From contig CP054936.1 in assembly GCA_013364255.1 (NCBI GenBank), forward strand, positions 124,001 through 188,000: DNA of 64,000 bases, written 5' to 3'. Source of the stretch: Streptomyces seoulensis (GTDB lineage Bacteria > Actinomycetota > Actinomycetes > Streptomycetales > Streptomycetaceae). The translations under genes were made by a program, and so were the position numbers. The notes under the pieces were generated by a model. That model was given only the letters and a program-made list of their open reading frames with translations. It ran no database searches and was not told where the DNA came from. Each line of letters begins with the position of its first letter. The stretch's first letter is position 1. Positions 41,726-64,000 of this stretch are shown piece by piece.

Positions 41726-41805
41726 GGATGCATTCCTTCGGAACGAGTGGACGGGTCGACTACTCGATGAACCCCTGCAACCAGCACGGCATGCCCGGCA
41801 GGGTA

Positions 41806-41985: not shown

Positions 41986-42936
41986 TCAGATCCTCTGTGC
42001 CACGTAGTGCCGGTAGCTGTCCACCGGCGGCATGAACTGCGACGGCAGCACGCCCATCTTCTTCAGCAGCCTGGTGGATCCGCTGTCGGTGTATCCGGCG
42101 AACGAACCGCCCACGGCCTCGGGGCCGACCCGCTTGGCCATGTGGCGCTGGACGGCGCCGACCCGCTGCTCGCGCAGCGCCTTGTGGAAGGAGCCGTCGG
42201 GGGCCAGCCGCCCGTGGATCGCGGCCTTCACCTGTGCGGAGATGTCACGGTCGAGGACCCACTCCAGACCGAGGTCCTTCTCCTGGAGCCGGGTCAGGAA
42301 GGCGTGGCGCTGTGTGGTGTAGAGGTCGACGTGGGTGAAGTAGCCGCCCGGCTTGAGCACCCGCGCCACCTCCCGCAGGAACGTCTCCAGACTGGGGTAG
42401 TTGTGGGCGCTCTCGATGTTCACCAGGACGTCGACCTCGCCGTCCTCGAACGGCAGGTGCTCCGCGTCGCCCTGGACGTAGCGCAGGCCCCGGCGGGACA
42501 GTGAGGCGTTGGCCCGCCTGATGGCCTGGTCCGACAGGTCGAGGCCGATCATGCTCTTCGCGTCGACGACGCGGGAGAGGAAGTTCAGGCCCTCACCGAG
42601 CCCGCAGCCGACCTCGAGCACGAACTTGTCCGCGTAGCCGTCCAGATCGAACGGCACCTCCCGCAGGGCGGCGAAGTACAGCTCCTCGGAGAAGCCGTCC
42701 GTGTCGTAGTCCAGGAAGCCGGGGATGCGGTCGTTGATCTCCTTGGCCACCTGCTCGTCGTGGTAGCCCCAGTTCCACAGGATGCCCTTCTTCGACATCC
42801 TGGCCTGCAGGTCGTAGCTGGTGGAGATGTTCTTCTTGTGCGTGTCCTCCTTGGCGCTCTGCCCGTCCTGGTCGTCGGTCAGGTTGATCTCGTTGACACT
42901 CGTGAACAAGCCGTACATGTCTTCGCGTGCACCCAT
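41986..42936 (-). CDS. SAM-dependent methyltransferase of the ansamycin cluster
   Basis: This is a 316-residue class I methyltransferase. The SAM site is FVLEVGCGLGEGLNFL at 105-120. Asp in MIGLDLSDQAI and the acidic VQGDAEHLPFEDGEVDVLVNIESAHNYPSLETFLREVARVLKPGGYF match motifs II to IV. The N-terminus carries the extra helical region (SYDLQARMSKKGILWNWGYHD) of the enzymes like rifamycin Orf14 (27-O-methyltransferase). It follows the monooxygenase in the same direction. Given the C3 hydroxyl left by the last PKS module, a plausible job is 3-O-methylation. The ATG at 42936 has AAAGGAA upstream. ATG at 42966, inside a tandem repeat, is in frame as well. Confidence 0.87.
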   Translation of the reverse strand: MGAREDMYGLFTSVNEINLTDDQDGQSAKEDTHKKNISTSYDLQARMSKKGILWNWGYHDEQVAKEINDRIPGFLDYDTDGFSEELYFAALREVPFDLDGYADKFVLEVGCGLGEGLNFLSRVVDAKSMIGLDLSDQAIRRANASLSRRGLRYVQGDAEHLPFEDGEVDVLVNIESAHNYPSLETFLREVARVLKPGGYFTHVDLYTTQRHAFLTRLQEKDLGLEWVLDRDISAQVKAAIHGRLAPDGSFHKALREQRVGAVQRHMAKRVGPEAVGGSFAGYTDSGSTRLLKKMGVLPSQFMPPVDSYRHYVAQRI

Positions 42937-42950
42937 GATCCGGGTTCCTT

Positions 42951-42990
42951 TCTCATCGGGTCTCATCGGGTCTCATCGGGTCTCATCGGG
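42951..42990. repeat. Four perfect 10-bp tandem repeats upstream of the methyltransferase
   Basis: TCTCATCGGG is repeated four times without error (minus strand CCCGATGAGA). It fills most of the gap between the monooxygenase stop and the methyltransferase start. Each copy contains an ATG on the minus strand. One such ATG (42966) is in frame with the methyltransferase. A 10-bp unit can change by slippage and would shift spacing and frame. Confidence 0.9.
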
Positions 42991-43011
42991 CCTGCCATTG
43001 ATGGGAAAACC

Positions 43012-44649
43012 TCAGTCGGCGGCCGGGGCCGGGGCCGCCAGTCGACGGGCCAGCGCGTCCACGAGCCTGCCCAGTGCGTCCGGTCCGTGCGCGGCGCCGA
43101 AGACGGTGAAGTCGGGCCGTACGAGCACGGCTGTCACACCGTGCTCGGCCAGGTAGGGCAGATAGCGGTCCGCCAAGTCGGCGACGACACCGGGGCCGGG
43201 CGGCCCCGAGCCCTCGCCCGCTGCCACCACGTGCGCGTAGCGTGTGCCCAGACCGTCGAGGAAGGCGCGCCGCCGGTCGTCGAGGAGGGCCGCCGGGTCG
43301 TCGGCCGCGAGCAGGACGAAGCCGAGGCCGATGATGTCGTCCAGCAGCCCGTCCCCGTCGGCGCCGGCCACGCGTGCCTGCGGGAACAGGGTGCCGGCGA
43401 GCGGCAGCGGGCCTCCGTCGCCGGCGCGGTGGACAAGCCCGTCGGACAGGGGGACCGCGCTCGACATGGGCAGCGCGCCCGCGCCCTCACGCCGCCTCCC
43501 GGCCAGCATGATCGCATCCCGGTCCGCCGCGGCGGCCGGATCCGTCACGCAGATCACCTTGCCGAGCTTCACGGACGTGGTGATGGCGTGCCGCACGTGC
43601 GCCCGGCGCTCGGCGGTGTAGGTGTCGAGCACCGAGTCGTCCGCGAGGCCGCGCAGCAACAGGTCCAGTTTCCACGACAGGTTGGCCGCGTCACGGAACC
43701 CCGAGCACATGCCCTGCCCGGCGAAGGGCGGCATGAGGTGTGCGGCGTCTCCCGCGAGCAGCAGCCGGCCCTTGCGCCACTCCTCGGCCCAGCGGGCCTG
43801 GAAGGTGTAGACGGCGTGCCGTTCGAGCGTCGCGTTGTCCGGGCGGACCGAGAACATCTCCAGCATGCGCCACAGCGTCTCTTCGCGTTGCAGCTCCTCG
43901 ATGCTCTCGCCCGGCAGCCGCATGAACTCGAAGCGGCGGTGCCCGGGCCCGGCCGACACCGCGGTCCGCGGCCGCTGCGGATCGCAGATCTGGAGGTTGT
44001 TGGGGCTGAAGTCGCGCGGCTCGTGCAGCACGACGTCGCAGATCAGCCAGTCGTAGAAGAAGCCGAGATCGGTGAGGGTCCCCTCCATGGACTCCCTGAC
44101 GAAGCTCTTGGCGCCGTCGCAGCCGACGACGTAGCGCGCGGTGAACGCGTACTCCTCCCCGTCGGTGTCCTCGGAGAGCACCTCGACCAGGTCGCCGCGG
44201 TCGTCGAGTTCGACGACCTCCTGCCCGCGGACGACCCGCAGGTTCGGGAAGTCGGCGCCGCGGTCGATCAGGGCGGCCTCAAGTCCCGGCTGGTACATGG
44301 CTGTTGCCTGCGGCCAGCCGCAGTGGCCGTTCTCGGCGCTCTCCATGTGCAGCAGGGTCTCGCCGGCGGCGTTCCGCCAGGCGTAGTCCCGCGAGTTCTC
44401 CCCGAACTTGCCGAGGAACGGACCGATGCCGGCGGCCGCCAGGATACGGGCGGCCTCGTCGTCGAAGCCGACGGCCCGCGGCATGGGGTACGGCTGGGAC
44501 CAGCGTTCCACGACCGTGACCCGCCAGCCGCCCCGGGCCAGCAGGATCGCCAGCACCTGCCCCACCGGGCCGTAGCCGACGACGGCCACGTCCGTGTCGG
44601 TGTCGGGGCCCGCCTCAGCACCGGCGACAGTCCGCGTCTGCACCTTCAT
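43012..44649 (-). CDS. FAD-dependent aromatic monooxygenase of the ansamycin cluster
   Basis: This is a 545-residue class A flavoprotein monooxygenase. GYGPVG at 25-30 is the dinucleotide motif. RYVVGCDGAKSFVRESM is the DG region, and GRLLLAGDAAHLMPPFAGQGMCSGFRDAANLSWKLDLLL the second FAD motif. The C-terminal thioredoxin-like domain is present. It belongs with the hydroxylases found in ansamycin clusters (GdmM, Rif-Orf19 type) that oxidise the aromatic nucleus of the AHBA-derived ring to a phenol or quinone. It is distinct from but related to the catabolic hydroxylase at 19838. The ATG at 44649 is used. It lies 17 bp beyond the amide synthase stop, so the genes are cotranscribed. Confidence 0.88.
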   Translation of the reverse strand: MKVQTRTVAGAEAGPDTDTDVAVVGYGPVGQVLAILLARGGWRVTVVERWSQPYPMPRAVGFDDEAARILAAAGIGPFLGKFGENSRDYAWRNAAGETLLHMESAENGHCGWPQATAMYQPGLEAALIDRGADFPNLRVVRGQEVVELDDRGDLVEVLSEDTDGEEYAFTARYVVGCDGAKSFVRESMEGTLTDLGFFYDWLICDVVLHEPRDFSPNNLQICDPQRPRTAVSAGPGHRRFEFMRLPGESIEELQREETLWRMLEMFSVRPDNATLERHAVYTFQARWAEEWRKGRLLLAGDAAHLMPPFAGQGMCSGFRDAANLSWKLDLLLRGLADDSVLDTYTAERRAHVRHAITTSVKLGKVICVTDPAAAADRDAIMLAGRRREGAGALPMSSAVPLSDGLVHRAGDGGPLPLAGTLFPQARVAGADGDGLLDDIIGLGFVLLAADDPAALLDDRRRAFLDGLGTRYAHVVAAGEGSGPPGPGVVADLADRYLPYLAEHGVTAVLVRPDFTVFGAAHGPDALGRLVDALARRLAAPAPAAD

Positions 44650-44666
44650 CTCTTCGCGCCCCTGTC

Positions 44667-45449
44667 TCAGCCGTTGCCCGAGCCGGCGAGGATGGTCTTC
44701 ACTACGCCCTCGAACTCGGCCTTGTCGATCAGGGTGCGGGTCGTCTCGCGGCCGTCTTCCACCGTCAGCAACCTCCTGCCGGTGAGGACGAGTTGACCGT
44801 TTCTGGTGGCGCGTCCGCGCAGCACGGTCTTCGCGAACAGCGAGTCGTTCACGATCTGTTCGGCGGCGGTGTCCCGCGGGCTGTCCCAGTCGGAGACGGC
44901 GCGGGCCGTCAGCTCGAACCGGTACACCGACCGCCAGTCCCCGGTGGCGGCCCGGCGTTCCAGCACGTGGTGGGCGCCGTCCGCGGTGAGCCGATAGGCG
45001 CACCCGTACTGGTGCTGCACCTCGTCGGTCATCCGCAGCGGCTCCAGGTACGACGGTCCGGCGAAGCCCACGTCGACCAGCCAGGTCGCCCCGTCCAGCC
45101 GGACACCGGTGAAGGTGTGCTCGAAGTCCGGCCCGAACCGCCCGTCGGGCCAGCGCTGGGAAGCGGCCAGGATCGAGACGTCGTAGCCGAGTTCGGCCAG
45201 GAGCCTGCGGAACAGGCCGCTCAGATCGTGGCACACGCCGCCCGCACCGCCGACGACGATCGCCCGGAACGCGGCATCGACGTCGATGTCGACGACGTTG
45301 CGGAAGCCGGTGAAGCTGTTCACGAAGTGACTGCTGTCGTAGGGCAGCGTCATCAGGTGGTTCTTGTGCAGTCGGCGCAGCGTCTCGATGTCGGGCTCGG
45401 GGACCTCTGTGAAACCCAGCCGGCGCAGGTACGTCTCCACCTCGAACAT
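44667..45449 (-). CDS. Ansamycin amide synthase (arylamine N-acetyltransferase family, RifF-like)
   Basis: This 260-residue enzyme of the arylamine N-acetyltransferase fold takes the finished chain from the last ACP as a Cys thioester and closes the macrolactam with the aryl amine of the starter. The triad is Cys73 (in GGVCHDLSGLF), His111 (in FEHTFTGVRL) and Asp126 (in WLVDVGFAGPS), the numbering I recall for RifF. The usual RGGxC(F/Y)E around the Cys is altered to GAGGVCHD. The start lies 4 bp after the PKS stop, with GAGAAGGG as ribosome site. Absence of a thioesterase in the PKS and presence of this gene define the cluster as ansamycin. Confidence 0.92.
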   Translation of the reverse strand: MFEVETYLRRLGFTEVPEPDIETLRRLHKNHLMTLPYDSSHFVNSFTGFRNVVDIDVDAAFRAIVVGGAGGVCHDLSGLFRRLLAELGYDVSILAASQRWPDGRFGPDFEHTFTGVRLDGATWLVDVGFAGPSYLEPLRMTDEVQHQYGCAYRLTADGAHHVLERRAATGDWRSVYRFELTARAVSDWDSPRDTAAEQIVNDSLFAKTVLRGRATRNGQLVLTGRRLLTVEDGRETTRTLIDKAEFEGVVKTILAGSGNG

Positions 45450-45453
45450 CCGG

Positions 45454-48400
45454 TTACTTTCCCTTCTCGATGTGGTCCCACTTGGCCAGCAGCTCGCGCA
45501 GCCGCGAGACGGCCTGCGCACGTGCCGCGTCGTCGTGCAGCGCCGGGGTGAGCGCCGATTCCAGCTTGCCGATCTCTTCGGCGACCGTTTCCGATGGGAC
45601 GGTGAGACCGGGTTCCAGTTCGTCCAGCATCAGCTCGGCGATCATGCCCGCGGTGGGGAAGTCGAAGATGAGCCCCTGCGGCAGGCCGAGCCCGGACATC
45701 CGGTTCAGCCGGTTGCGCAGTTCGAGTCCGGTCAGCGAGTCGAAGCCGATGTCGAGGAAGGCGACCCCGTCCTCGACCTCTGTGGAGCCCGCGGCATGGC
45801 CGAGCACCTGTCCGGCCTCCGCCAGCACCCGGTCGGTCAGCGCCGTCAGCCGCTCCTGCGGGGCCAGCTGCGACAGCCGCGCCCGCAGGGCCGCGCCGTC
45901 GTCCCCTGCCGTCGTGTCCGCACCGGCGCCCGCATCGGCGCCCGCATCGGCGCCGGTGGCGGTGAGAGCGGCGACCTCGGGCAGTTCCCGCAGCAGCGGA
46001 CGCTCCCTGGCGACCGTGTAGGACGGGGCGAACCTCGACCAGTCGATGCCCGCGACCACGAGGTGTCCCTCGTCGCGTGCCATCGCCTGGCCCAGGGCGC
46101 GCACCGCGAGTTCCGGCCGCATCAGCTCGACGCCGACCTCCGCGAACTCTTCGGCCACGGCGGCGTCGACCATGCCCCCGCCGCCCCAGGCGCCCCAAGC
46201 CACGGCGGTCGCCGGCTTGCCCGCAGCGCGCCTGCGATGCGCCAGCCCCTCCACGAAGGCGTTGGCGGCCGCGTAGCCTCCCTGGCCCGCGCCTCCCCAG
46301 GCCGCCGCTCCGGAGGAGAACAGGACGAAGGCGTCCAGCGGGTGATCGGCGAGCAGGGCGTCCAGATGCACGGCACCGGCGACCTTCGCCCGGCCCACCT
46401 CGGCGAACTCCGCCACGGTGCTGTCCGGCAGCTGCCTGGGCTCTTGTGCGGCGCCGGCCGTGTGGAAGACAGCGGAGACGGGCGCGTCGGACGGCACCGC
46501 CGCGATCGCCTCCGCGAGCGCCGCCCGGTCCGTGACGTCGCACGCCGCGATGGTGACGCGGGCGCCGAGCGCTACCAACTCCGCTTCCAGCGCGTTCGCT
46601 CCCTCGGCGGCCCGGCCGCGACGGCTGAGCAGCAGCAGGTGCTCGGCGCCACGGCCCGCGGCCCAGCGCGCCACGTGCGCGCCGATCCCTCCGGTGCCGC
46701 CGGTGACGAGGACCGTACCGCGCGGCGCCCGGGGCTCCTCCGCCGCGATGCCGTCGCCGTCGTCGTCTGCCACGGCGGTGGACGCGGCGCGGATCATGCG
46801 GCGCGCGTACGCCCCGGTGGGCCGGATCGCCACCTGGTCCTCGCCGTCCTCTCCGCGGAGCACGGCGACCAGCCGGCCCAACGCGGTCTCGTCCGGCTCG
46901 GCGGCCACATCGACGAGCCCGCCCCAGACCCTGGGATGGTCGAGGGCAAGTACCGTGCCCAGCCCCCAGACCGCGGGCTGGGACTCGCTCCTCACCTCCC
47001 CGTCCTCCTGGACCGCGACGGCCCCTGAGGTCAGGCACCACAGCGGCGCGGTGACGTCCAGGTCCTTCAGCGACTGCACGAGGGTGACGGTGGCCGTCAT
47101 ACCCCTGGACAGCGAGGCGTGCTCCGGGTCGGGCCGCTCGTCCAGTGCCAGCAGGGACAGCACCCCGGCCGGTGTGCCCGGCTCCGCGTCCAGACGCGCC
47201 CGGACGAGCTCGGCCAAGCCCTTGCGGCCCTCACCGTCCACGTCGACCCGTACGACGCGGCCGCCGTGCGCGGTCAGCGCACCACTCGTCGCCTCCGCCA
47301 TGGCCTCGGCGTGCCCCGCGGGCGCCAGCAGCAGCCATGGGCCGGCGTCGGCCGCGCCCGCCGCAAGCTCGGGAGCGACGGGCCGCCAGACCATCCGGTA
47401 GCGCCAGCCGTCCAGCACCGCCTGCTCCTGATGGCGGCGGCGCCACGAGGACAGGGCGGGCAGCACTCCGTCCAGGGCCGCGGCGTCGAGCCGCAGGGAC
47501 CGCGCCAGCGACTCCGCGTCGCCGCTGTCCACGATCTCCCAGAACGCCGCATCGGCCGGCTCGGCCACCGTTTCGGAGACGGCGGGTCCGTCACCCTCGA
47601 TCCAGTAGCGCTGGTGCTGGAAGGCGTAGGTGGGCAGGTCGATCCGGCGTGCACCGGTACCGGCGAGGACCTGCTCCCAGTCGACGTCGACACCGCGGGC
47701 GTGGAGCCGGGCAAGGGTGGTCATCAGGGCGCGGTCCTCGGGGACGTCCCGTCGCAGCGACGGCACGCATCCCTCCGCCACCATTCCTGACAACACCCCG
47801 TCGGGGCCCAGCTCCAGGAACGTGGTCACCTTCCGGTCCCGCAGCGCACGCACACCGTCATGGAAACGGACCGTGCCCCGCACGTGCTCCACCCAGTACT
47901 CCGGCGTGCACAGTCGCTCGGCGTCCGCGACCTCGCCCGTCAGGTTCGAGATCACCGGGACGGACGGCGCGTGATAGGTGAGTGTGGACGCCACCCGGCG
48001 GAACTCGTCCAGCATCGGGTCCATCAGCGGCGAGTGGAACGCGTGCGAGACCCGCAGCCGCTTCGTCCGGCGCCCCTCCAGGCGGGTCAGCACCGCCTTC
48101 ACCTCGTCCTCCACGCCGGACAGGACCAGCGACGCCTCCCCGTTGATGGCCGCGATGCTCACCCCGGCCGTCAGCAACGCAGCGACCTCGTCCTCCGACG
48201 CCTCGACCGCCACCATCACCCCACCCACCGCCAACTCCTGCATCAACCGGCCCCGCGCCACCACCAACCCCGCGGCATCCTCCAACGACCACACACCCGC
48301 CAGATACGCCGCCACCACCTCACCGATCGAATGACCCACCAGGCAGTCCGGCCGCACGCCCCACGACTCCACCAACCGGAACAGTGCCACCTCGACAGCG

Positions 48401-51400
48401 AACAGCGCCGGCTGCGCATACCGCGTCTCATCCAGTGGAGCCCCGCCCCCGAACACCACCTCCTTCAACGACCTGCCGAGGCTCCCGTCCACCGCCGCGC
48501 ACACCTCGTCGAAAGCCTCCGCGAACACCGGATAGGCCGCATACAGCTCACGCCCCATCCCGACACGCTGCGCACCCTGACCCGTGAACAGCACCCCCAG
48601 ACGACCCGCAACCACGGCTTCCGCACGTATGGAAGCGAGCTGGTCGCGCGCCTCCTCCACCGAACCCGCCACCACCACCGCACGGTGATCAAACCGAGCA
48701 CGAGACGTCGCCAGCGAATACGCCGTATCCGCGAGACTCAGCGCCGGGTTCAGCTCCAGGTGGCGGGCCAGCCGCGCCGCCTGGGCGCGCACCGCTTCCG
48801 GTGTCCTCGCCGAGACCACCAACGGCACCAGACCCTCCGGCGCCCCCGCACGCTCCACCGGAACCGCAGGATCGGCAGGCTCAACCCCCTCCAGAATCAC
48901 GTGCGCGTTGGTCCCGCTGATGCCGAAGGAGGAGACGGCCGCCCGACGCGGGCGCTCCCCCTCCCTCGACCACTCCCGCGTCTCCGTCAGCAACTCCACC
49001 GCACCCGCCGACCAGTCCACCTTCGGCGACGGAGCATCCACATGCAACGTCCTCGGCAGCACCCCGTGCCGCATCGCCTCCACCATCTTGATCACACCCG
49101 CCACACCCGCCGCGGCCTGCGCATGACCAATGTTCGACTTCAACGAACCCAGCCACAACGGACGACCCACCCCAGGACGCTCCTGACCGTACGTCGCGAT
49201 CAGCGCCTGCGCCTCGATCGGATCACCCAACGACGTACCCGTGCCGTGCGCCTCCACCGCATCCACATCAGCGGCCGACAGCCCCGCACTGGCAAGCGCC
49301 TGCCGGATCACACGCTGCTGCGAAGGACCATTCGGCGCCGTCAGCCCATTCGACGCACCATCCTGGTTCACCGCACTGCCCCGCACCAGCGCCAACACCT
49401 CATGACCGTTGCGCCGCGCATCCGACAAACGCTCCAACAGCAGCAGACCCACACCCTCGGCCCACGACGTCCCGTCCGCACCCGCCGCAAAAGACTTGCA
49501 CCGACCATCCGGCGCCAGACCCCGCTGCCGCGAGAACTCCACGAAACTGCCCGGCCGGGCCATGACCGCCACACCACCGGCCAGCGCAAGCGAGCACTCA
49601 CCATTCCGCAACGCCTGGGCCGCCGAATGCAACGCCACCAACGACGACGAACACGCCGTGTCCACCGTCACCGCGGGACCCTCGAAACCGAAGGTGTACG
49701 ACACTCGGCCCGAGACGAAGCTGCCGGCGTTGCCGTTGCCGAGGAAGCCTTCCAGTTCCTCCGGTACGCGGGTGAGGTTGGTGGCGTAGTCGTGGTACAT
49801 GGCGCCGGTGAACACGCCGGTCCGGCTGCCCTTCAGCGTGGTCGGATCGATCCCGGCCCGCTCCAGCACCTCCCACGACGTCTCCAGCAGCAACCGCTGC
49901 TGCGGATCCATCGCCAACGCCTCACGCGGACTGATCCCGAAGAACCCCGGGTCGAACTCCCCCGCGTCATGCAGGAACCCGCCCTCCCGAACATAGGACT
50001 TACCCACCCTGTCCGGATCAGGATCGAACAACCCCGCCACATCCCAACCCCGGTCCTCCGGAAACGCCGTGATGCCCTCACGCCCCTCGACCACCAGCCG
50101 CCACAAATCCTCCGGCGACCCCACCCCACCCGGCAGCCGACACCCCATCGCCACAATCGCGATCGGATCCTCCGACACCGAGACGACAGACACACCCCCC
50201 GCCACCACCGAACCGGCCACCGCCCCCTCACCCACCAACTCCCCGCACAAGAACTCAGCCAGCACACCCGGCGACGGATAATCGAAAATCAACGTCGCCG
50301 GCAACCGCAACCCCGTCACCGCATTCAACCGGTTCCGCAACTCCACCGCCGTCAACGAATCAAAACCCAGATCGTTGAACACCTGCCCAGCACCGATACT
50401 CCCCGCATCCGCATGCCCCAACACCACCGCGACCTCACCCGACACCAACTCCACCACAAGACGCCGCTGCTCGTTGCGGGACAGCGTCGCGAGCCGGCCG
50501 GCCAAGGAGTCCGCGGCGGTCCCGCCGGAGACCGCGGCACTGGTGCGTGCCGTACGGCGCGGCCGGCGGACCAGACCTCGCAGCACTGACGGCAGTTGTC
50601 CGGCACGTGCCTGCTCCGCCAGGGCGGCGAAGTCGAACCTGACCGGCACCAGCGTGGACGCCGTGCCGGACAAGGCGGTGTCGAGCAGGGCCATGCCGTC
50701 CTCGGTGGCCAACGGGAGCACTCCGCCGCGGCTCATGCGCGCCTGGTCCGACTGACTCATCGTGGCGATCATGCCGCCGGACTCGGCCCAGAGGCCCCAG
50801 GCCAGCGAGACGGCCGGCAGTCCCTGTGCGCGGCGCCACTGGGCGAAGGCGTCCAGGAACGCGTTCGCGGCCGAATAGTTGCCCTGTCCCGGGCCACCGA
50901 TCACACCGGCGGCCGAGGAGAACAGGACGAATGCCGAGAGGTTCATGTCGCGTGTCAGCTCGTGCAGTATCAGTGCGGCATCGGCCTTGGGCCGGAAGGC
51001 GGTGCCGATCCGCTCCTGGGTCAGGCTCGCGATCACGCCGTCGTCGAGGACTCCCGCCGCGTGGACGACGCCGGTCAGCGGCGCGTCGGGCGCGACCGTC
51101 GCCAGGAGCTTCTTCACCGCCCTGCGCTTCGACAGGTCGCACGCCACCACGGTGACGCTCGCTCCGGCCGCCTCCAGTTCGGCCGTCAGCTCCTGGACGC
51201 CGGGCGCCTCCGGTCCTCGACGGCTGGTCAGCAGCAGGTGGCGTACGCCGTGCGCGGTGACGAGGTGACGGGCGACCAGTCCGCCCAGGGTTCCGGTGCC
51301 GCCGGTGACGAGTACCGTGCCCGCAGGGTCCAGCACCGTTCCGGTTCCGGTACTTGCCGTGGCGCGCACCAGCCGGGGAATGTGGACGACGTCGGCACGC

Positions 51401-54400
51401 ACCGCCACCTGGGGCTCCCCGGTGGCCAGGACGCCCGCCAGAGCCGGCCGGGACGACTGGAGCTCGTCCACGTCCATCAGCAGGACGCGGTCCGGGTTCT
51501 CGGCCTGTGCCGCGCGGACCAGGCCCCAGACCGCGGCGCCCGCCGGATCGCTCACCTCGGTGTCGCCGCGGACGCCCACCGCACCGCGCGTCACGACGAG
51601 CAGGCGGGTCGATGCGAGTTCCGGCGCGGCAAGGAACGCCTGGACGATGCCGAGGACGCGGCCGACGAGACCCCGGACCCGTTCGGGACTGACGACGCCG
51701 TCGACGGCGTCGACGACCAGTACTTCCGGCATCGACGCGCCGGACCGCACCAGTTCCTCGATGTCCAGGCCCATGGCGACCGGGTGCGGGACGACCGCGG
51801 AGGTGGCCTCGGCCGTCGTCCCGGTCGGCTGCGCGGTCCATTCGACGGCGAACAGGGCGTCCGCCCCGGAATCGGCGCCGACGGCAGCCTTGACCTGGTC
51901 CTCGGCCACCGCCCGCAGTACGAGGGACTCGACCGACGCGACCGGGGCCCCCTCGCCGTCGGCGAGTTCCAGTGCCACCGATTCGGGTCCGGTGGGTGTC
52001 ATGCGCACCCGCAGGGCGGTCGCGCCGGAGGCGTGCAGCGTCAGGCCGTTCCACGCGAACGGCAGGATGAGCTTGCCCTCCTCGGCCTTCCGCTCGGTGA
52101 AGGCCCCGCAGTGCAGCACCGCGTCGAGGAGCGCGGGGTGCAGTCCGAACCCGGCCGCCGCCTCGTCGTCGTCCACCGGAAGCGCGACCTCGGCGTAGAT
52201 GTCCTCTCCGTGGGTCCACAACGTGTTGAGGCCCTGGAACAACGGCCCGTACCCGTATCCGGCGGTCGCCTGGTCCGCGTAGAAACCGGTCAGGTCGACG
52301 GGCCGCGCGCCCTCCGGGGGCCACACGGCGGAGGAGGCGCCGGGAGTCGCCGCGTCGTCGGCCAGCTGGCCTCGGGCGTGGCGGACCCACGGGGCATCGG
52401 AGTCGGCGTCGTCCGGCCGCGAGTACACCGCGACCGGCCGCACGCCGTCCGCGTCCTCACCCACCGACACCTGGACACGCACCGCACCCGTGTCGGGGAT
52501 CACGACCGGCGCCTCGATGATCAGTTCCCGCAGGGAGCGCGCACCCACCTCGTCCCCGGCGCGTACCGCGAGTTCCACCAGCGCGGTGCCCGGCAGCAGC
52601 ACCGTGCCGGCCACCGAGTGGTCCGCCAGCCACGGCTGCGCGGCCAGGGAGAGTCGGCCGGTGCACACGACACCGCCCGTTTCGGGAACGCTGATCACCG
52701 TGTCGAGCAGCGGATGTCCGGTGGCGAGCGCCGGGTCCCCACCGGACGGGGCCGGGTTCATCCAGTAGCGCTGGTGCTGGAAGGCGTAGGTGGGCAGGTC
52801 GATCCGGCGTGCACCGGTACCGGCGAAGACCTTCTCCCAGTCGACGTCGACACCCCGGGCGTGGAGCCGGGCAAGGGTGGTCATCAGGGCGCGGTCCTCG
52901 GGCACGTCGCGCCGCAGCGACGGCACGCACCCTTCCTCGGCCACCATCCCGGAGAGCACTCCGTCGGGGCCCAGCTCCAGGAAGGTGGTCACCTTCCGGT
53001 CCCGCAGCGCACGCACACCGTCGTGGAAACGGACCGTGCCCCGCACGTGCTCCACCCAGTACTCCGGCGTGCACAGTTGCTCGGCGTCCGCGATTTCGCC
53101 CGTCAGGTTCGAGATCACCGGGACAGACGACGCGTGATAGGTGAGTGTGGACGCCATCCGGCGGAACTCGTCCAGCATCGGGTCCATCAGCGGCGAGTGG
53201 AACGCGTGCGAGACCCGCAGCCGCTTGGTCCGGCGCCCCTCCAGGCGGGTCAGCACCGCCTTCACCTCGTCCTCCACGCCGGACAGGACCAGCGACGCCT
53301 CCCCGTTGATGGCCGCGATGCTCACCCCGGCGGTCAGCGACGGAGCCACCTCGTCCTCCGACGCCTCGACCGCCACCATCACCCCACCCACGGCAAGCTC
53401 CTGCATCAACCGGCCCCGCGCCACCACCAACGCCGCGGCATCCTCCAACGACCACACACCCGCCAGATACGCCGCCACCACCTCACCGATCGAATGACCC
53501 ACCAGGCAATGCGCCCGCACCCCCCACGACTCCACCAGCCGAAACAGTGCCACCTCGACGGCGAACAACGCCGGCTGCGCATACCGCGTCTCATCCAGCA
53601 GATCACCGCCCCCGAACACCAGCTCCTTCAAAGACCTGCCGAGGCTCCCGTCCACCGCGGCGCACACCTCGTCGAAAGCCTCCGCGAACACCGGATAGGC
53701 CGCATACAGCTCGCGCCCCATCCCGGCGCGCTGCGCACCCTGACCCGTGAACAGCACCCCCAGACGGCCCCCGACCACCGCCTCCCCACGCACCGACGCC
53801 AACTGCTCCCGCGCCTCGTCCACCGAACCCGCCACCACCACCGCACGGTGATCAAACCGAGCACGAGACGTCGCCAGCGAAAACGCCGTATCCGCGAGGC
53901 TCAGCGCCGGGTTCAGCTCCAGGTGACCGGCCAGACGGCGAGCCTGCGCGGCCACGGCATCGACTGTCCTGCCCGACAGGACGAGTGGCAGCAATCCGTG
54001 CGCGGCAGCCGGCTCGGACGCCTCACTCGCCACGGCCTCCGCTGCCTCTACGCCCTCCAGAATGACGTGCGCGTTGGTCCCGCTGATCCCGAAGGAGGAG
54101 ACGGCCGCCCGACGCGGGCGCTCGCCCTCCCTCAACCACTCCCGCGTCTCCGTCAGCAACTCCACCGCACCCGCCGACCAGTCCACCTTCGGCGACGGAG
54201 CATCCACATGCAACGTCCTCGGCAACACCCCGTGCCGCATCGCCTCCACCATCTTGATCACACCCGCCACACCCGCCGCGGCCTGCGCATGACCAATGTT
54301 CGACTTCAACGAACCCAGCCACAACGGACGACCCACCCCAGGACGCTCCTGACCGTACGTCGCGATCAGCGCCTGCGCCTCGATCGGATCACCCAACGAC

Positions 54401-55395
54401 GTACCCGTCCCATGCGCCTCCACCGCATCCACATCAGCGGCCGACAGCCCCGCACTGGCAAGCGCCTGCCGGATCACACGCTGCTGCGAAGGACCATTCG
54501 GCGCCGTCAACCCATTCGACGCACCGTCCTGATTCACCGCACTGCCCCGCACCAGCGCCAACACCTCATGACCATTGCGCCGCGCATCCGACAGACGCTC
54601 CAACAGCAGCAGACCCACACCCTCGGCCCACGACGTCCCGTCCGCACCCGCCGCGAACGACTTGCACCGACCGTCCGGCGCCAGACCCCGCTGCCGCGAG
54701 AACTCCACGAAACTGCCCGGCCGGGCCATGACCGCCACACCACCGGCCAGCGCAAGCGAGCACTCACCATTCCGCAGCGCCTGGACTGCCGAATGCAACG
54801 CCACCAACGACGACGAACACGCCGTGTCCACCGTCACCGCCGGACCCTCGAAACCGAAGGTGTACGACACCCGACCCGAGACGATACTTCCGGCGGCCAC
54901 GGCTGCCTCGTAGTCGTGGTACATCACCCCGGCGAAGACGCCCGTCGGGCTGCCCTTCAGCGTGGTCGGATCGATCCCGGCCCGCTCCAGCACCTCCCAC
55001 GACGTCTCCAACAGCAACCGCTGCTGCGGATCCATCGCCAACGCCTCACGCGGACTGATCCCGAAGAACGCCGGGTCGAACTCCCCCGCGTCATGTAAGA
55101 ACCCGCCTTCGCGGACGTAGGACTTGCCGGGCAGGCCAGGGCTGGGGTCGTAGAGGCCGTCGACGTCCCAGCCCCGGTCCTCCGGGAACGGTGTGATGCC
55201 GTCACGTTCCTCTGCGACGAGGCGCCACAGGTCCTCCGGCGAGGAGACGCCACCGGGCAGCCGGCACGCGGCCGAGACTATCGCGATCGGTTCGGACGAG
55301 GCCGCGATGACCCGGTCGCGCTCCTCCTTGAGCTGCTCGTTCTCCATGAGCGAGGCACGCAGTGCCGCGACGAGCTTCTCCTCGGACACAGACAT
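45454..55395 (-). CDS. Type I polyketide synthase, last two modules
   Basis: This is a 3313-residue modular PKS. A docking coiled coil covers residues 1-32 ([20 protein letters not shown]). Module 1: KS 35-447 (Cys193 in DTACSSS), AT about 546-865 (GHSIGE and malonyl-type HAFH), DH from about 890 (His926 in [10 protein letters not shown], Asp1091 in LLDAVLH), KR about 1355-1560 (LDD motif, Tyr1507, B-type), ACP Ser1680. Module 2: KS about 1742-2168 (Cys1915), AT about 2266-2585 (HAFH), no DH, KR about 2890-3090 (no LDD, Trp3033, Tyr3041, A-type), ACP Ser3220. There is no thioesterase, and the C-terminus ends in a short helix. It adds two malonyl units: the first gives a double bond, the second leaves a hydroxyl at C3. 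GGAGGA precedes the ATG. Confidence 0.95.
49818..50478. repeat. Near-identical ACP-to-KS junction, copy 1
   Basis: About 660 bp that match 60360-61020 at a constant offset of 10542 bp with only a few base changes. It spans the ACP end, the inter-module linker and the first part of the KS. Confidence 0.85.
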
Positions 55396-55425
55396 ACTTG
55401 AGTTCCTCCGTAGGCCGCGACGGGC

Positions 55426-58400
55426 TCAGTTGTTGGTGTTGCCCATCGCGCGTTCGATGAGGTCGGCGACGTCCATGTCGGCGATCAGGTGCGCCGCGTT
55501 CTGCCGCGCTTCCGGAGAGGCTGCCTGTGCCGTGCCCACGTCCGCGGCACCGGGGGCCGCGGCCACCAGGTGCATCAACTGGCGCAGCACGCCCAGCTCG
55601 TCCAGCCGCTTGAGCGGTACGGAAACGAGAGCCTTGCGCAGCCCGGCCTCGTCCACGTCGGCGAGGTCCACGAGGCCGGTCGCAGCGTCCGGAACGAGTT
55701 CCGCGCGCAGGTGCTCGGTGATCGCGGTGGGTGACGGGTAGTCGAAGATCAGCGTGGCCGGCAGGCGGATGCCGGTCAGCCCGGCCAGCTTGTTGCGCAG
55801 CTCGACCGCGGTGAGCGAATCGAACCCCATCTCGCTGAAAGCCTGCCCCGGAACGATGTCGTCGGGTTCCGTGTGCCCGAGTACGGCGGCCACCTCGTCG
55901 CGGACCAGGTTCAACAGCGTCTCCGTCTGCTGCTCGTCCGGGAGCCGCGCCAGCCGGGCCGAGAGGGATTCGGCGGGTGCCGGTCCAGCGGTGGCGGCAA
56001 CGCGCCGGGGCCGGCGCACCAGGCCCTGCAACATGGGGACCAGTTGGCCGTTCCCCGCTTGGGTGGACAGTGCGGCGAGGTCGAACTTGATCGGTACCAG
56101 GGCGGGTTCGTCGCTGACGAGGCCGGCGTCGAAGAGCGCCATCCCCTCCTCCACGGACAACGCCCTGATCCCACCGCGCCGCATACGCGCCTGATCGGAC
56201 CGACCCAGCGAACCCGTCATCCCACTGGACTCACCCCACAACCCCCACGCCAACGACACCCCCGGCAAACCCTGACAACGACGCCACCGGGCAAACGCAT
56301 CCAAAAACGCATTCGCCGCCGCATAATTCCCCTGCCCCGCACCACCCAACACACCCGACGCAGACGAATACAGAACAAACGCATCCAACCCCAAATCCCG
56401 CGTCACCTCATGCAACACCAACGCCGCATCCACCTTCGGACGAAACACCCCAGCCAACCGCTCCGGCGTCAAACCCCCCACCACACCATCATCAAGCACA
56501 CCAGCCACATGCACCACACCCGACAACGGCGCCCCCACCGGCACCCGCCCCAACAACCCCACCACCGCCTCACGATCCGCCACATCACACGCCTCCACCA
56601 CCACCTCCGCACCCGCCCGCTCCAACTCCGCCCGCAACTCCACCACACCCACAGCATCCACACCCCGCCGACCAGCCAACACCAAACTCCGCACCCCATG
56701 CACCGCCACCAAATGCCGAGCCACCACCGCACCCAACGCACCCGTACCACCCGTCACCAACACCGTCCCACCCCGACGAAACACCCCACCACCAGAAGCA
56801 CCCCCCACCGACCCCACCGACACCCCAGCCCGCACCAACCGCGGAACAAACACCCCACCCGACCGCAACGCCACCTGCGGCTCACCCAACGCAACCACAC
56901 CCGCCAACACCCCACCACCAGGCACCACCCCATCCACCCCCACATCCACCAACACCACCCGCCCCGGACTCTCCGCCTGCACCGAACGCACCAACCCCCA
57001 CACCGCAGCCCCCACCGGATCCACCACACCACCATCACCATCACCACCCACAGCACCACCCACAGCACTACCCACCGACACAGCACCCCGCGACACCACT
57101 ACCAACCAACCCCCACGCGACCCCGCGAGAAACGACTGAACAACCGAAAGCACCCCAGCCGTCACCTCACGCACCACCCCCGCATCCAACGACACCGACC
57201 GAGGCACCTCCACAACCTCCACCTCCACCTCCGCCCCGACATCACCCACACCCCCAGCCACCGGCAACAACGACCACTCCACCCGGAACAACGAATCTCC
57301 GGACACCCGCAGTTGCTCATCCGCCACCGCCCGCAGCACGAGGGACTCGACCGACGCGACCGGAGTCCCCTCACCGTCGGCGAGTTCCAGCGCTACCGAT
57401 TCGGGTCCGGTGGGCGTCATGCGCACCCGCAGGGCGGTGGCGCCGGAGGCGTGCAGCGTCAGGCCGTTCCACGCGAACGGCAGGAGCAACCCCTCAGCGT
57501 CGGGCTCACGTTCACCCAGGAAGGCTCCCGCGTGCAGCGCGGCGTCCAGGAGCGCCGGGTGCAGACCGAACCCAGCGGCCGACTCCACCTCACCCGCCGG
57601 CAACGCGACCTCGGCGAACACCTCGCCCCCACGCCGCCACACCGCACGCAAACCCCGAAACACCGGCCCGTATCCATACCCGGCGGTCGCCTGCTCCGTA
57701 TAGAAGCCGGTCAGGTCGACGGGCTGCGCAGCCTCCGGAGGCCAGACGGCGAAGTCGGCACCAGGTGCCGGTGCCTCGTCGGCGAGCTGCCCCCTCGCGT
57801 GGCGGACCCACGGCGCGTCGGAGTCGGCGTCGTCCGACCGCGAGTACACCGCGACCGGCCGCACGCCGTCCGCGTCCTCACCCACCGACACCTGGACACG
57901 CACCGCACGCTCATCGGGGATCACCAAGGGAGTCTCGATCACCAGCTCCCGCAGCGTCCCCGCGCCGACCTCATCACCGGCACGAACTGCCAACTCGACC
58001 AAAGCGGCACCCGGCAGCAGGATCGTGCCGGCCACGGCGTGATCGGCAAGCCACGGCTGGATGCCAAGCGACAGCCGACCTGTGCCGAGGACACTGCCCG
58101 TATCGGGGAGACTGATCAACGAGTCCAACAGCTGATGCCCGGCCGCGAATGCGGGATCACCGCTGGACACATTCGAGTTCATCCAGTAGCGCTGGTGCTG
58201 GAAGGCGTAGGTGGGCAGGTCGATCCGGCGTGCACCGGTACCGGCGAAGACCTTCTCCCAGCCGACGTCGACACCACGGGCGTGGAGCCGGGCAAGGGTG
58301 GTCATCAGGGCGCGGTCCTCGGGCACGTCGCGCCGCAGCGACGGCACGCACCCTTCCTCGGCCACCATCCCGGAGAGCACCCCATCAGGGCCCAGCTCCA

Positions 58401-61400
58401 GGAACGTGGTCACCTTCCGCTCCCGCAGTGCACGCACACCGTCGTGGAAACGAACCGTCCCGCGCACGTGCTCCACCCAGTACCCCGGCGTGCACAGTTG
58501 CTCGGCGTCCGCGATTTCGCCCGTCAGGTTCGAGATCACCGGGACGGACGGCGCGGAATAGGTGAGCGTGGACGCCACCCTGCGGAACTCCTCCAGCATC
58601 GGGTCCATCAGCGGCGAGTGGAACGCGTGCGAGACCCGCAGCCGCTTCGTGCGACGCCCCTCGAACCGGGTCAGCACCGCCTCGACCTCGTCCCGGACGC
58701 CGGACAGGACCAGCGACATGTCCCCGTTGATGGCCGCGATGCTCACCCCGGCCGTCAGCAACGCAGCGACCTCGTTCTCCGACGCCTCGACCGCCACCAT
58801 CACCCCACCCGCCGCCAGTTCCTGCATCAACCGGCCCCGCGCCACCACCAACCCCGCGGCATCCTCCAACGACCACACACCCGCCAGATACGCCGCCACC
58901 ACCTCACCGATCGAATGACCCGCCAGGCAGTCCGGCCGCACGCCCCACGACTCCACCAACCGGAACAACGCCACCTCGACAGCGAACAACGCCGGCTGCG
59001 CATACCGCGTCTCATCCAGTGGAGCCCCGTCCCCGAACACCAGCTCCTTCAACGACCTGCCGAGGCTCCCGTCCACCGCGGCGCACACCTCGTCGAAGGC
59101 TTCAGCGAACACCGGGTAGGCCGCATACAGCTCGCGCCCCATCCCGACACGCTGCGCACCCTGGCCCGTGAACAGCACCCCCAGACGGTCCCCGACCACC
59201 GTCTCTCCACGCACCGACGCCAACTGCTCCCGCGCCTCCTCCACCGAACCCACCACCACCACCGCACGATGATCAAACCGAGCACGAGACGTCGCCAGCG
59301 AATACGCCACGTCCGACAGATGCAACCCCGAACCCTCACCCAGGAACCCGGCCAGCCGCGCCGCCTGGGCACGCACCGCTTCCGGTGTCCGCCCCGAGAC
59401 CACCAACGGCACCACACCCTCCGGCGCCCCCGCACGCTCCACCGGAACCGCAGGATCGGCAGGCTCAACCCCCTCCAGAACCACGTGCGCGTTGGTCCCG
59501 CTGATGCCGAAGGAGGAGACGGCCGCCCGACGCGGGCGCTCCCCCTCCCTCGACCACTCCCGCGCCTCCGTCAGCAACTCCACCGCACCCGCCGACCAGT
59601 CCACCTTCGGCGACGGAGCATCCACATGCAACGTCCTCGGCAACACCCCGTGCCGCATCGCCTCCACCATCTTGATCACACCCGCCACACCCGCCGCGGC
59701 CTGCGCATGACCGATGTTCGACTTCAACGAACCCAGCCACAACGGACGACCCACCCCAGGACGCTCCTGGCCGTACGTCGCGATCAGCGCCTGCGCCTCG
59801 ATCGGATCACCCAACGACGTACCCGTCCCATGCGCCTCCACCGCATCCACATCAGCGGCCGACAGCCCGGCACTGGCAAGCGCCTGCCGGATCACACGCT
59901 GCTGCGAAGGACCATTCGGCGCCGTCAACCCATTCGACGCACCATCCTGGTTCACCGCACTGCCCCGCACCAGCGCCAACACCTCATGACCGTTGCGCCG
60001 CGCATCCGACAGACGCTCCAACAGCAGCAGACCCACACCCTCGGCCCACGACGTACCGTCCGCACCCGCCGCGAACGACTTGCACCGACCATCCGGCGCC
60101 AGACCCCGCTGCCGCGAGAACTGTACGAAGGCGATGGGGGTGGACATCACGGCGACGCCGCCGGCCAGGGCGAGCGAGCACTCGCCGTTGCGCAGGGCCT
60201 GCATCGCGGAGTGCATCGCCACCAGCGACGACGAGCACGCCGTGTCCACCGTCACGGAGGGTCCTTCGAGCCCGAGGGCATACGAAACGCGCCCGGAGAC
60301 GAGGCTGCCGGCGGCGACTGCCTCGTTGTAGTCGTGGTACATGGCGCCGGCGAAGACACCGGTCCGGCTGCCCTTCAGCGTGGTCGGATCGATCCCGGCC
60401 CGCTCCAGCACCTCCCACGACGTCTCCAACAGCAACCGCTGCTGCGGATCCATCGCCAACGCCTCACGCGGACTGATCCCGAAGAACCCCGGATCGAACT
60501 CCCCCGCGTCATGCAGGAACCCGCCCTCCCGAACATAGGACTTACCCACCCTGTCCGGATCAGGATCGAACAACCCCGCCACATCCCAACCCCGGTCCTC
60601 CGGAAACGCCGTGATGCCCTCACGTCCCTCGACCACCAGCCGCCACAAATCCTCCGGCGACCCCACCCCACCCGGCAGCCGACACCCCATCGCCACAATC
60701 GCGATCGGATCCTCCGACACCGAGACGACAGACACACCCCCCGCCACCACCGAACCGGCCACCGCCCCCTCACCCACCAACTCCCCGCACAAGAACTCAG
60801 CCAGCACACCCGGCGACGGATAATCGAAAATCAACGTCGCCGGCAACCGCAACCCCGTCACCGCATTCAACCGGTTCCGCAACTCCACCGCCGTCAACGA
60901 ATCAAAACCCAGATCGTTGAACGCCTGCCCAGCACCGATACTCCCCGCATCCGCATGCCCCAACACCACCGCGACCTCACCCGACACCAACTCCACCACA
61001 AGACGCCGCTGCTCGTTGACCGTCAGGCCCGACAGACGGTCGGCCAGGGAGCCGCCGCCGGCACCGCCCGCGCCGGCGGCCGCGATGCGGCGTGGGCGGC
61101 GGACCAGCCCTCGGAGCATCGACGGCAATTCATCGGTGGCTGCCTGCTGGGCAAGATCCGCGAGGTCGAACTTGACGGGTACCAGGACGGGTTCGTCACT
61201 GACGAGGCCGGCGTCGAAGAGCGCCATCCCCTCCTCCACGGACAACGCCCTGATCCCACCGCGCCGCATACGCGCCTGATCAGACCGCCCCAGCGAACCC
61301 GTCATCCCACTGGACTCACCCCACAACCCCCACGCCAACGACACCCCCGGCAAACCCTGACAACGACGCCACCGGGCAAAAGCATCCAAAAACGCATTCG

Positions 61401-64000
61401 CCGCCGCATAATTCCCCTGCCCCGCACCACCCAACACACCCGACGCAGACGAATACAGAACAAACGCATCCAACCCCAAATCCCGCGTCACCTCATGCAA
61501 CACCAACGCCGCATCCACCTTCGGACGAAACACCCCAGCCAACCGCTCCGGCGTCAAACCCCCCACCACACCATCATCAAGCACACCAGCCACATGCACC
61601 ACACCCGACAACGGCGCCCCCACCGGCACCCGCCCCAACAACCCCACCACCGCCTCACGATCCGCCACATCACACGCCTCCACCACCACCTCCGCACCCG
61701 CCCGCTCCAACTCCGCCCGCAACTCCACCACACCCACAGCATCCACACCCCGCCGACCAGCCAACACCAAACTCCGCACCCCATGCACCGCCACCAAATG
61801 CCGAGCCACCACCGCACCCAACGCACCCGTACCACCCGTCACCAACACCGTCCCACCCCGACGAAACACCACACCACCATCACCATCACCCACCGACCCC
61901 ACCGACCCCACCGACACCCCAGCCCGCACCAACCGCGGAACAAACACCCCACCCGACCGCAACGCCACCTGCGGCTCACCCAACGCAACCACACCCGCCA
62001 ACACCCCACCACCAGGCACCACACCCCCCTCACCCACATCCACCAACACCACCCGCCCCGGACTCTCCGCCTGCACCGAACGCACCAACCCCCACACCGC
62101 AGCCCCCACCGGATCCACCACACCACCATCACCAACCACATCACCCTCCACAGCGCCACCCACCGACACAGCACCCCGCGACACCACCACCAACCAACCC
62201 CCACCCGACCCCGCGAGAAACGACTGAACAACCGAAAGCACCCCAGCCGTCACCTCCCGCACCACCCCCGCATCCAACGACACCGACCGAGGCACCTCCA
62301 CAACCTCCACCTCCACCTCCGCCCCGACATCACCCACACCCCCAGCCACCGGCAACAACGACCACTCCACCCGGAACAACGACCCACCAACACCACCACG
62401 ACCCGACACCCCCAACTCCCCCGCATCCACCGCCCGCAACACCAACGACTCCACCGACGCAACCGGAACCCCCTCACCGTCGGCGAGTTCCAATGCCAGC
62501 GATTGCGCCCCCGTGGAATTCAGTCGGATCCGAAGAGTCGAAGCACCCGAAGCGTGCAGGGACACACCACTCCACGCGAACGGCAGGAGCAACCCCTCAC
62601 CGTCGGGCTCACGCTCACCCAGGAAGGCTCCCGCGTGCAGCGCGGCGTCCAGGAGCGCCGGATGCAGACCGAACCCGGCGGCCGACTCCACCTCACCCGC
62701 CGGCAACGCGACCTCGGCGAACACCTCGCCCCCACGCCGCCACACCGCACGCAGACCCTGAAACACCGGCCCATAGCCGTACCCACGCTCGGCCAACTGC
62801 TTGTACAGGTCTGACACATCCACGGCTACCGCGTTCTCCGGCGGCCAGACACTCAACCCGGCAGCAGGAGCGACGACTTCTGCGCTGAGCTGCCCACTCG
62901 CGTGGCGGACCCACGGCGCGTCGAGGTCCGCGTCGTCCGGCCGCGAGTACACCGCGACCGGCCGCACGCCGTCCGTGTCCTCACCCACCGACACCTGGAC
63001 ACGCACCGCACCGGCGTCGGGGATCACCAGCGGAGTCTCGATCACCAGCTCCCGCAGGGAGCGCGCACCCACCTCGTCCCCGGCACGAACCGCGAGCTCC
63101 ACCAGCGCGGTGCCCGGCAGCAGCACCGTGCCGGCCACCGAGTGATCCGCCAACCACGGCTGCGCGGCCAGGGAGAGTCGGCCAGTGCACACGACACCGC
63201 CCGTGTCCGGCGCACTCACGACGATGTCGAGCAGCGGGTGACCGGTCGCCAGCGCCGGATCCCCGCCGGAGAGAGTCGGGTTCATCCAGAAACGCTGCCG
63301 CTGAAAGGCGTAAGTCGGCAGGTCCACCCGCTGCGCACCGGTACCGGCGAAGACCTTCTCCCAGTCGACATCGACACCGCGGGCGTGAAGCCGGGCAACG
63401 GTGGTCATCAGAGCGCGGTCCTCGGGCACGTCGCGCCGCAGCGACGGCAGGCACCCTCCCTCGGCCACCATCCCGGAGAGCACCCCATCAGGGCCCAGCT
63501 CCAGGAAGGTCGTCACCTTCCGCTCCCGCAGCGCACGCACACCGTCATGGAAACGGACCGTGCCCCGCACGTGCTCCACCCAGTACTCCGGCGAACACAG
63601 CCGCTCGGCGTCCGCGACCTCGCCCGTCAGGTTCGAGATCACCGGGACGGACGGCGCGTGATAGGTGAGCGTGGACGCCACCCGGCGGAACTCCTCCAGC
63701 ATCGGGTCCATCAGCGGCGAATGGAACGCGTGCGAGACCCGCAGCCGCTTCGTCCGGCGCCCCTCCAAGCGGGTCAGCACCGCCTCCACCTCGTCCCGCA
63801 CGCCGGAAAGGACCAGTGACATGTCCCCGTTGATCGCCGCGATGCTCACCCCGGCGGTCAGCAACGGAGCGACTTCGTCCTCCGACGCCTCGACCGCCAC
63901 CATCACCCCACCCGCCGCCAGCTCCTGCATCAACCGGCCCCGCGCCACCACCAACCCCGCGGCATCCTCCAACGACCACACACCCGCCAGATACGCCGCC
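55426..64000 (-). CDS. Type I polyketide synthase, 5' end beyond window
   Basis: The gene runs off the right edge. The visible 2857 or so residues hold, in order of translation: C-terminal half of an AT (malonyl-type HAFH near 63730), DH (His of [10 protein letters not shown] at 63142, Asp of LLDAALH at 62647), KR (VLVTGG near 61850, LDD, B-type), ACP (Ser near 60899). The next module follows: KS (DTACSSS near 60235), AT (about 58190-59180, GHSIGE and HAFH), DH ([10 protein letters not shown] near 58040), KR (near 56760, LDD, B-type), ACP (Ser near 55817). It ends with a helical docking region of about 90 residues. Both modules add malonyl units and should leave double bonds. It ends 30 bp before the next PKS gene, so the two subunits act in series. 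Confidence 0.95.
56100..57293. repeat. Near-identical KR segment, copy 1
   Basis: This pairs with 61185-62381, coding for the KR and part of the structural KR half of two successive modules. Over about 620 bp (56221 to 56840) the offset to the partner is constant (5085 bp) with few differences. From about 56200 the plus strand becomes strongly A/C-rich (coding strand G/T-rich), unlike the surrounding DH and AT code. Confidence 0.85.
60360..61020. repeat. Near-identical ACP-to-KS junction, copy 2
   Basis: Partner of 49818-50478, located in the other PKS gene. The same base-composition bias (A/C on the plus strand) is seen in both copies. Confidence 0.85.
61185..62381. repeat. Near-identical KR segment, copy 2
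   Basis: Partner of 56100-57293. The two differ mainly in the linker around 61865-61915 and 62110-62165, where short Gly/Val/Asp-rich stretches vary in length. Confidence 0.85.

Follow-up and report, generated by a model that had tools for sequence, protein, structure and literature searches.

An ansatrienin/trienomycin-type ansamycin gene cluster predicted in Streptomyces seoulensis and the possible double silencing of its module 4 dehydratase

Organization of the locus

The window analyzed here is a stretch of 64,000 nucleotides from Streptomyces seoulensis (contig CP054936.1, positions 124,001 to 188,000; G000:C1:124001-188000, G000 being the window's own genome), whose right-hand part carries genes of a modular polyketide synthase (PKS) and, behind them, an amide synthase and two tailoring genes. 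Positions 84001-320000 of this contig of 8,255,570 bases were examined around it. The stretch most probably represents the distal half of a biosynthetic gene cluster for an ansamycin of the ansatrienin (mycotrienin)/trienomycin type, and we put the probability of this compound type, the exact congener apart, at roughly 0.93. An earlier reading made from the letters of the window alone (the sequence-only reading) had proposed a cluster for a triene-type benzenoid ansamycin at 41986-64000. The features of this interval are real and lie on the minus strand, but position 41986 is the end of a methyltransferase gene and not of the PKS, and only the distal part of the cluster is included. The window edge falls inside the acyltransferase (AT) of PKS module 5, and the rest of the cluster follows directly to the right, between genome positions 188001 and about 237945.

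The PKS genes and the modules lying in the window are listed below (A, adenylation domain; KS, ketosynthase; DH, dehydratase; ER, enoylreductase; KR, ketoreductase; KR0, KR lacking the Tyr/Asn pair; ACP, acyl carrier protein; TE, thioesterase). Carbon positions are those predicted for the product.

P1, genome 215871-205738: loader A-KR0-ACP and module 1 with DH-ER-KR
P2, genome 205702-200096: module 2, in the frame that gives intact domains
P3, genome 200031-189988: modules 3 and 4
P4, from genome 189943 (65943 on the window scale) to window 55426, minus strand: modules 5 and 6
P5, window 55395-45454, minus strand: modules 7 and 8
Window 60712..64000, minus strand: module 5 of P4, cut in its AT by the window edge, AT(HAFH)-DH-KR(LDD)-ACP, C8=C9
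Window 55426..60711, minus strand: module 6 of P4, KS-AT(HAFH)-DH-KR(LDD)-ACP, C6=C7
Window 50170..55395, minus strand: start of P5 (docking region) and module 7, KS-AT(HAFH)-DH-KR(LDD)-ACP, C4=C5
Window 45454..50169, minus strand: module 8 of P5, KS-AT(HAFH, malonyl)-KR(A-type Trp)-ACP, no TE, C1-C2 and C3-OH

The assembly line and its predicted product

For these families it is well established how the HAFH and YASH motifs of ATs, the LDD and Trp motifs of KRs and the motifs of DHs are to be read. Read in this way, the last four modules bear out what the sequence-only reading had claimed for them. All four ATs of modules 5-8 carry HAFH and are of the malonyl type by motif, against a feared methylmalonyl specificity. 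Modules 5, 6, and 7 are motif-complete, with HxxxGxxxxP, GYGYGPxF, LPFxW, and DxxxH in their DHs, for which inactivity had been feared, and with LDD-type KRs that possess Ser-Tyr-Asn. Module 8 has a KR, in which the Trp of A-type KRs replaces LDD, and no DH motif, and P5 stops after the ACP without a thioesterase. The region of module 7 is 82% identical to the collinear place in the relative G362, in which the loader and modules 1-8 follow in identical order. A loading module had been expected to the right, and indeed the first PKS opens with an adenylation domain for which specificity for 3-amino-5-hydroxybenzoic acid (AHBA) is predicted (AMP-binding, 2.7e-93, P1 residues 39-400), followed by a KR without the Tyr/Asn pair and an ACP. 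Altogether, the assembly line runs from an A-KR0-ACP loader over eight modules to a RifF/GdmF-type amide synthase. Among the eight modules checked, the methylmalonyl motif YASH is limited to modules 2 and 3, and the ATs of modules 1 and 4-8 are of the malonyl type.

Eight extensions on AHBA give by arithmetic 17 chain atoms, which together with 3 ring atoms and the nitrogen form a 21-membered lactam, matching the ring size of ansatrienin. The YASH motifs of modules 2 and 3 place methyl groups at C14 and C12, which we take to be the methyl positions of ansatrienin. The colinear reading further yields oxygens at C3 from module 8, at C13 from module 3 and, provided that the module 4 DH is inactive, at C11, as well as double bonds at positions 4, 6, 8, and 14. 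According to this model, the aminoshikimate genes of the cluster itself would supply AHBA, and the adenylation domain of the loader would activate it. Module 1 (malonyl, DH-ER-KR) would then form the saturated C16-C17, module 2 (methylmalonyl, DH-KR) the C14-methyl and C14=C15, module 3 (methylmalonyl, KR) the C12-methyl and C13-OH, and module 4 (malonyl, KR, DH probably dead) the C11-OH. Modules 5-7 (malonyl, DH-KR) would introduce the triene C8=C9, C6=C7, and C4=C5, and module 8 (malonyl, KR) the C3-OH, before the amide synthase would free the chain as a 21-membered macrolactam. The 4,6,8-triene with a 3-oxygen function and the ansatrienin/trienomycin-like product that had been proposed are supported by this module pattern and by the AHBA and side-chain gene sets described below, and the broader assignment to a triene-type benzenoid ansamycin can be sharpened to the ansatrienin/trienomycin type.

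Release and tailoring genes

Downstream of P5, three further cluster genes lie in the window:

44667..45449, minus strand: RifF/GdmF-type amide synthase with NAT fold (PF00797, 3.9e-47)
43012..44643 (start approximate), minus strand: FAD-dependent aromatic monooxygenase, 3-HPP hydroxylase-like (NF004829, 1.5e-197)
41986..42966, minus strand: S-adenosylmethionine (SAM) methyltransferase (Methyltransf_11, 5.6e-24)

Amide synthases of this family depend on a Cys-His-Asp triad, and the S. seoulensis protein keeps all three residues: Cys (GGVCHD), His (EHTF), and Asp (VDVGF). It matches the solved GdmF (8ot2/8oom) over residues 1-257 of 260 (E 2e-78). Its recognition as RifF-like holds. A search of 392 genus genomes (own included) found amide synthase matches at E <= 1e-30 in 30, of which, beyond its own genome, only G362 scored high (85%); a contig scan added six loci (84-88%) in Streptomyces LUP30, IBSBF 2953, MMG1121, S. 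hilarionis, S. humidus, and S. rishiriensis, which gives 84-88% identity to seven relatives altogether. The tail of amide synthase, monooxygenase and methyltransferase is kept in all seven relatives compared. The monooxygenase (83-87% identity) stands beside the amide synthase and would probably turn the benzene moiety into a (hydro)quinone by oxidation, and the methyltransferase (89-92%), the outermost gene on this side common to all compared, is probably the C3-O-methyltransferase that would yield the 3-methoxy group.

A nitroreductase/malonic semialdehyde reductase-like gene (window 41132-41815, minus strand) adjoins the methyltransferase. It occurs near the cluster in four of the seven relative stretches (82-90%), and the left border may therefore reach slightly beyond the methyltransferase.

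AHBA and side-chain genes right of the window

The genes beyond the PKS are the following (NRPS, non-ribosomal peptide synthetase; T, thiolation domain; DAHP, 3-deoxy-arabino-heptulosonate 7-phosphate; EPSP, 5-enolpyruvylshikimate 3-phosphate; SDR, short-chain dehydrogenase/reductase; MFS, major facilitator superfamily):

Genome 216045, plus strand: aroB-like gene
Genome 217585, minus strand: ROK kinase
Genome 218514 to about 221054, minus strand: A-T-TE NRPS
Genome 221093-222019, minus strand: GNAT acyltransferase
Genome 222123 to about 222560, minus strand: type II dehydroquinase
Genome 222909-224072, plus strand: AHBA synthase
Genome about 224069, plus strand: oxidoreductase
Genome about 225.4-226.0 kb, plus strand: AHBA-type phosphatase (TIGR01454, 346 bits; cut-off 247)
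After the phosphatase gene, plus strand: class II DAHP synthase
Genome 227545, plus strand: gene with EPSP-synthase and AMP-ligase domains
Genome 230749, plus strand: acyl-CoA dehydrogenase
Genome 231915, plus strand: SDR
Genome 232813, plus strand: FMN reductase
Genome 237945-234973: LuxR-type regulator
Genome 238434, plus strand: MFS transporter, may lie outside the cluster

AHBA synthase and its partner genes, predicted to lie to the right, are thus present about 35 kb beyond the edge. Seven AHBA gene kinds were found (aroB-like, ROK, AHBA synthase, oxidoreductase, TIGR01454 phosphatase, class II DAHP synthase, and type II dehydroquinase), which have their counterparts in rifG, H, J, K, L, M, and N of rifamycin biosynthesis. 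In PMC8788734 these rif genes are described as serving AHBA, and rifI aminoshikimate.

The side-chain genes that had been looked for on this side form a set fitting an amino acid and a cyclohexanecarboxylate. The A-T-TE NRPS would probably load alanine onto the C11-OH, and the GNAT-type acyltransferase would probably cap the alanine with cyclohexanecarboxylate from shikimate-derived genes. Cyclohexanecarboxylate is built by EPSP-synthase-like, ligase, and reductase genes. Labeled shikimic acid has been reported to enter this moiety of ansatrienin (PMC8788734). The closest solved adenylation domain to that of the NRPS is 8www_A (932.9 bits, residues 2-501). This structure may derive from an ansatrienin NRPS, a possibility given no weight here. 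An N-terminal extension in a 1059-residue open reading frame of the NRPS was rejected, being the GNAT gene read out of frame, and a single-sequence structure prediction of the adenylation domain (mean pLDDT 40.9) was not used.

AHBA synthase was found in all seven relatives (90-93%), whereas the right-hand genes as a whole were compared with G362 only, the loci of the six drafts covering the amide synthase side. In G362, counterparts with 66-91% identity exist for the NRPS, GNAT, AHBA synthase, oxidoreductase, phosphatase, DAHP synthase, EPSP/ligase, acyl-CoA dehydrogenase, SDR, FMN reductase, and LuxR genes; the aroB-like, ROK, dehydroquinase, and MFS genes had no match at E <= 1e-20 in the G362 stretch compared. 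The G362 counterparts of P4 and P2 show frame breaks (G362:C2:1061386-1064559, between modules 5 and 6, and about 1081400-1081600, in module 2), which lie inside near-identical module repeats and are possibly assembly errors.

Weighing of alternative products

The C11 side chain needs a hydroxyl, which module 4 would have to leave in place. Module 4 is encoded in P3 outside the window (genome 189988 to about 195290), and its KR motifs are intact. Its DH shows GCGYGPSAQ in place of the GYGYGPxF(Q/R) of modules 5-7 and LDAVLR in place of LDAxLH, that is, two of the four hallmark motifs are altered. If this DH were nevertheless active, a C4-C11 tetraene without the C11 oxygen, or a mixture, would result. 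HxxxGxxxxP, the catalytic Asp and LPFxW are indeed retained, much of the domain is 90-100% identical to one or another intact sibling DH, and some activity would be possible, since the catalytic His and Asp are kept. We compared, by sequence alone, 30 DH loci kept from eight genomes, this DH included. The first Tyr of GYxYGPxF proved not to be strict (Tyr in 23, Phe, Leu, Val, or Arg in six others, and Cys in the module 4 DH only), so that by itself this position says little. In contrast, its Phe is kept in 28 of the 30 loci and lost only in the module 4 DH and in a single G362 match cut off by a frame break, and the last position of DxxxH is His in 28, Gln in one, and Arg in the module 4 DH alone. 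As two motifs are altered and C11 acylation genes are present, and as G362 and four named relatives have a dead DH at the counterpart place, a tetraene appears improbable, and the C11-OH of the ansatrienin/trienomycin type is preferred.

A more serious competitor leaves the triene core unchanged and concerns the congener: the main product might be trienomycin (a phenol, no quinone) or cytotrienin, in which the amino acid is another one and the cap is a cyclohexenyl group. All of these would be built by identical core-forming modules, tailoring specificity is not readable from sequence, and trienomycins have been described from the mycotrienin strain S. rishiriensis T-23 (PMC10094535). On the other hand, the aromatic FAD monooxygenase conserved in 7/7 relatives fits ring oxidation, and the A-T-TE NRPS with the EPSP-synthase-like/ligase/reductase set fits, without proving, alanine and cyclohexanecarboxylate, which leaves such a congener as a minority option of some weight. 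That the cluster belongs to another benzenoid ansamycin of the geldanamycin, herbimycin, or ansamitocin type is very unlikely. GdmF is the nearest solved amide synthase, but in the 392 genus genomes searched the amide synthases outside the present group are at most 50% identical, and a methylmalonyl motif confined to modules 2 and 3, with malonyl modules 4-8 in a triene pattern, appears not to agree with the extender and reduction patterns of geldanamycin and the other ansamycins.

Several points weigh against the assignment to the ansatrienin/trienomycin type. The module 1 DH has Ala for the Pro of HxxxGxxxxP (Ala is found there in 4 of the 30 DH loci), yet a saturated C16-C17 requires this DH to be active, and the possible residual activity of the module 4 DH counts in the same direction. 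The product type is read from the sequence: genes, domains, motifs, and synteny are observed, while substrate specificities, tailoring order, and product are predicted from them. The proposed match to the ansatrienin clusters of the literature is drawn from gene content and known chemistry, and the predicted specificities for cyclohexanecarboxylate and alanine are drawn from family membership. Finally, the G362 stretch, as the sole comparator for the right-hand side, offered no match to the aroB-like, ROK, or dehydroquinase gene and has the broken reading frames mentioned above.

History of the module 4 dehydratase

In G362, the DH of module 4 lacks the catalytic His, the entire GYxYGPxF segment, and the Asp. 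A search with it through the eight genomes, G362 included, found DHs with 68-73% identity and identical losses in MMG1121, S. hilarionis, LUP30, and S. rishiriensis; IBSBF 2953 and S. humidus gave at most 51% in this search, and the S. seoulensis genome at most 55%, its own module 4 DH reaching 53%. The shortened dead DHs of the drafts presumably belong to module 4, since those of S. hilarionis and S. rishiriensis have an intact DH about 5.4 kb downstream on one contig, which is the spacing of modules 4 and 5 in S. seoulensis.

In 200-base windows, the first 800 bases of the module 4 KS are closest to module 4 of G362 (87-93%, against 64-83% for the siblings), and so is the end of the module. 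From the end of the KS through AT, DH, and KR the relation is reversed, the best sibling showing 89-100% and module 4 of G362 50-84%, with two exceptions for sibling identity, 78% at the DH lesion and 87% after the KR. In 60-base windows the DH tracks modules 5, 6, and 7 (M5, M6, M7) by turns. Identity is lowest from residue 1025 in the altered GYxYGPxF (65-68% to M5, M6, and M7), and two nearby windows have 82-83%. In G362, homogenization has likewise reached the AT and KR of modules 4-6 but spared the module 4 DH (49-68% to its siblings).

Gene conversion is known to shape modular PKSs. The sibling-module mosaic leads us to favor, as the simplest reading, that the module 4 DH was silenced twice: a shared dead DH would have been overwritten by gene conversion from the intact M5-M7 DHs, and the new DH then inactivated again by lesions in GYxYGPxF and DxxxH. 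A repaired DH would have been re-broken under selection for the product, whose side chain needs the C11-OH. We rate this history as slightly more likely than not. The shortened DH form could be the later one, or the imported sequence could have brought the lesion along; moreover, IBSBF 2953 and S. humidus yielded no counterpart DH, and the comparison uses pairwise identities. If true, it would provide a natural test of product selection when gene conversion resets a module, and would bear on the tolerance of assembly lines for module homogenization.

Further observations

An amidohydrolase gene (minus strand), a FAD_binding_3 monooxygenase gene (plus strand), and a BphC/glyoxalase-like dioxygenase gene (plus strand) lie close together at window 17734-23366 and are possibly an aromatic degradation group. 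The second contig of the genome (G000:C2) has 90,057 bases, and its first 20 kb (L054) match Streptomyces plasmids of about 85-94 kb over phage tail tape measure/tail genes, so that C2 may be a phage-plasmid; no place in the named plasmids covered 80% of this query.

Comparison with known systems

The kind of compound is already known, and the cluster is a further member of the ansatrienin/trienomycin type. This work places a complete cluster of this type in one genome and its marker genes in seven more, six of which are drafts with the cluster split over contigs. The possibly twice-silenced DH is the sole part that may surprise a specialist. The solved relative GdmF is a homolog of the amide synthase over the range given above, orthology not being implied, and the programming of the geldanamycin PKS differs from that of the present one.

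An NRPS for D-alanylation is said to have been described for ansatrienin biosynthesis by Shi in 2016, and the A-T-TE NRPS of the present cluster would be its candidate counterpart. By description, the likeness to ansatrienin of Streptomyces collinus Tu 1892 and Streptomyces sp. XZQH13 consists in the AHBA starter, the 21-membered lactam, and the predicted C11 side chain; PMC8788734 gives a 21-membered ring with cyclohexanoyl-alanyl on the C11-OH. The module 4 DH tract found here, a sibling-module mosaic with altered motifs, may set the present cluster apart from them. S. rishiriensis T-23 is reported in PMC10094535 to make trienomycins/mycotrienin. In S. rishiriensis NBRC 13407, which is not known to be T-23, the amide synthase is 87%, the monooxygenase 84%, the methyltransferase 91%, and the AHBA synthase 91% identical to those of S. 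seoulensis; unlike here, the DH at the counterpart place has the shortened dead form (L090).

S. collinus is reported to carry clusters for ansatrienin and naphthomycin (PMC6784220), and the S. seoulensis genome likewise has a second ansamycin-type cluster outside the window (G000:C1:7287000-7349000, L049-L052). It comprises an AHBA synthase 77% identical to the first, a type II dehydroquinase, a FAD monooxygenase, a second amide synthase, KAS III-like and E1-dehydrogenase genes, and PKS genes that together show eight KS motifs and in which one AT bears the unusual motif VAGH. Unlike the naphthomycin cluster of S. collinus, this second cluster may use a branched extender unit.

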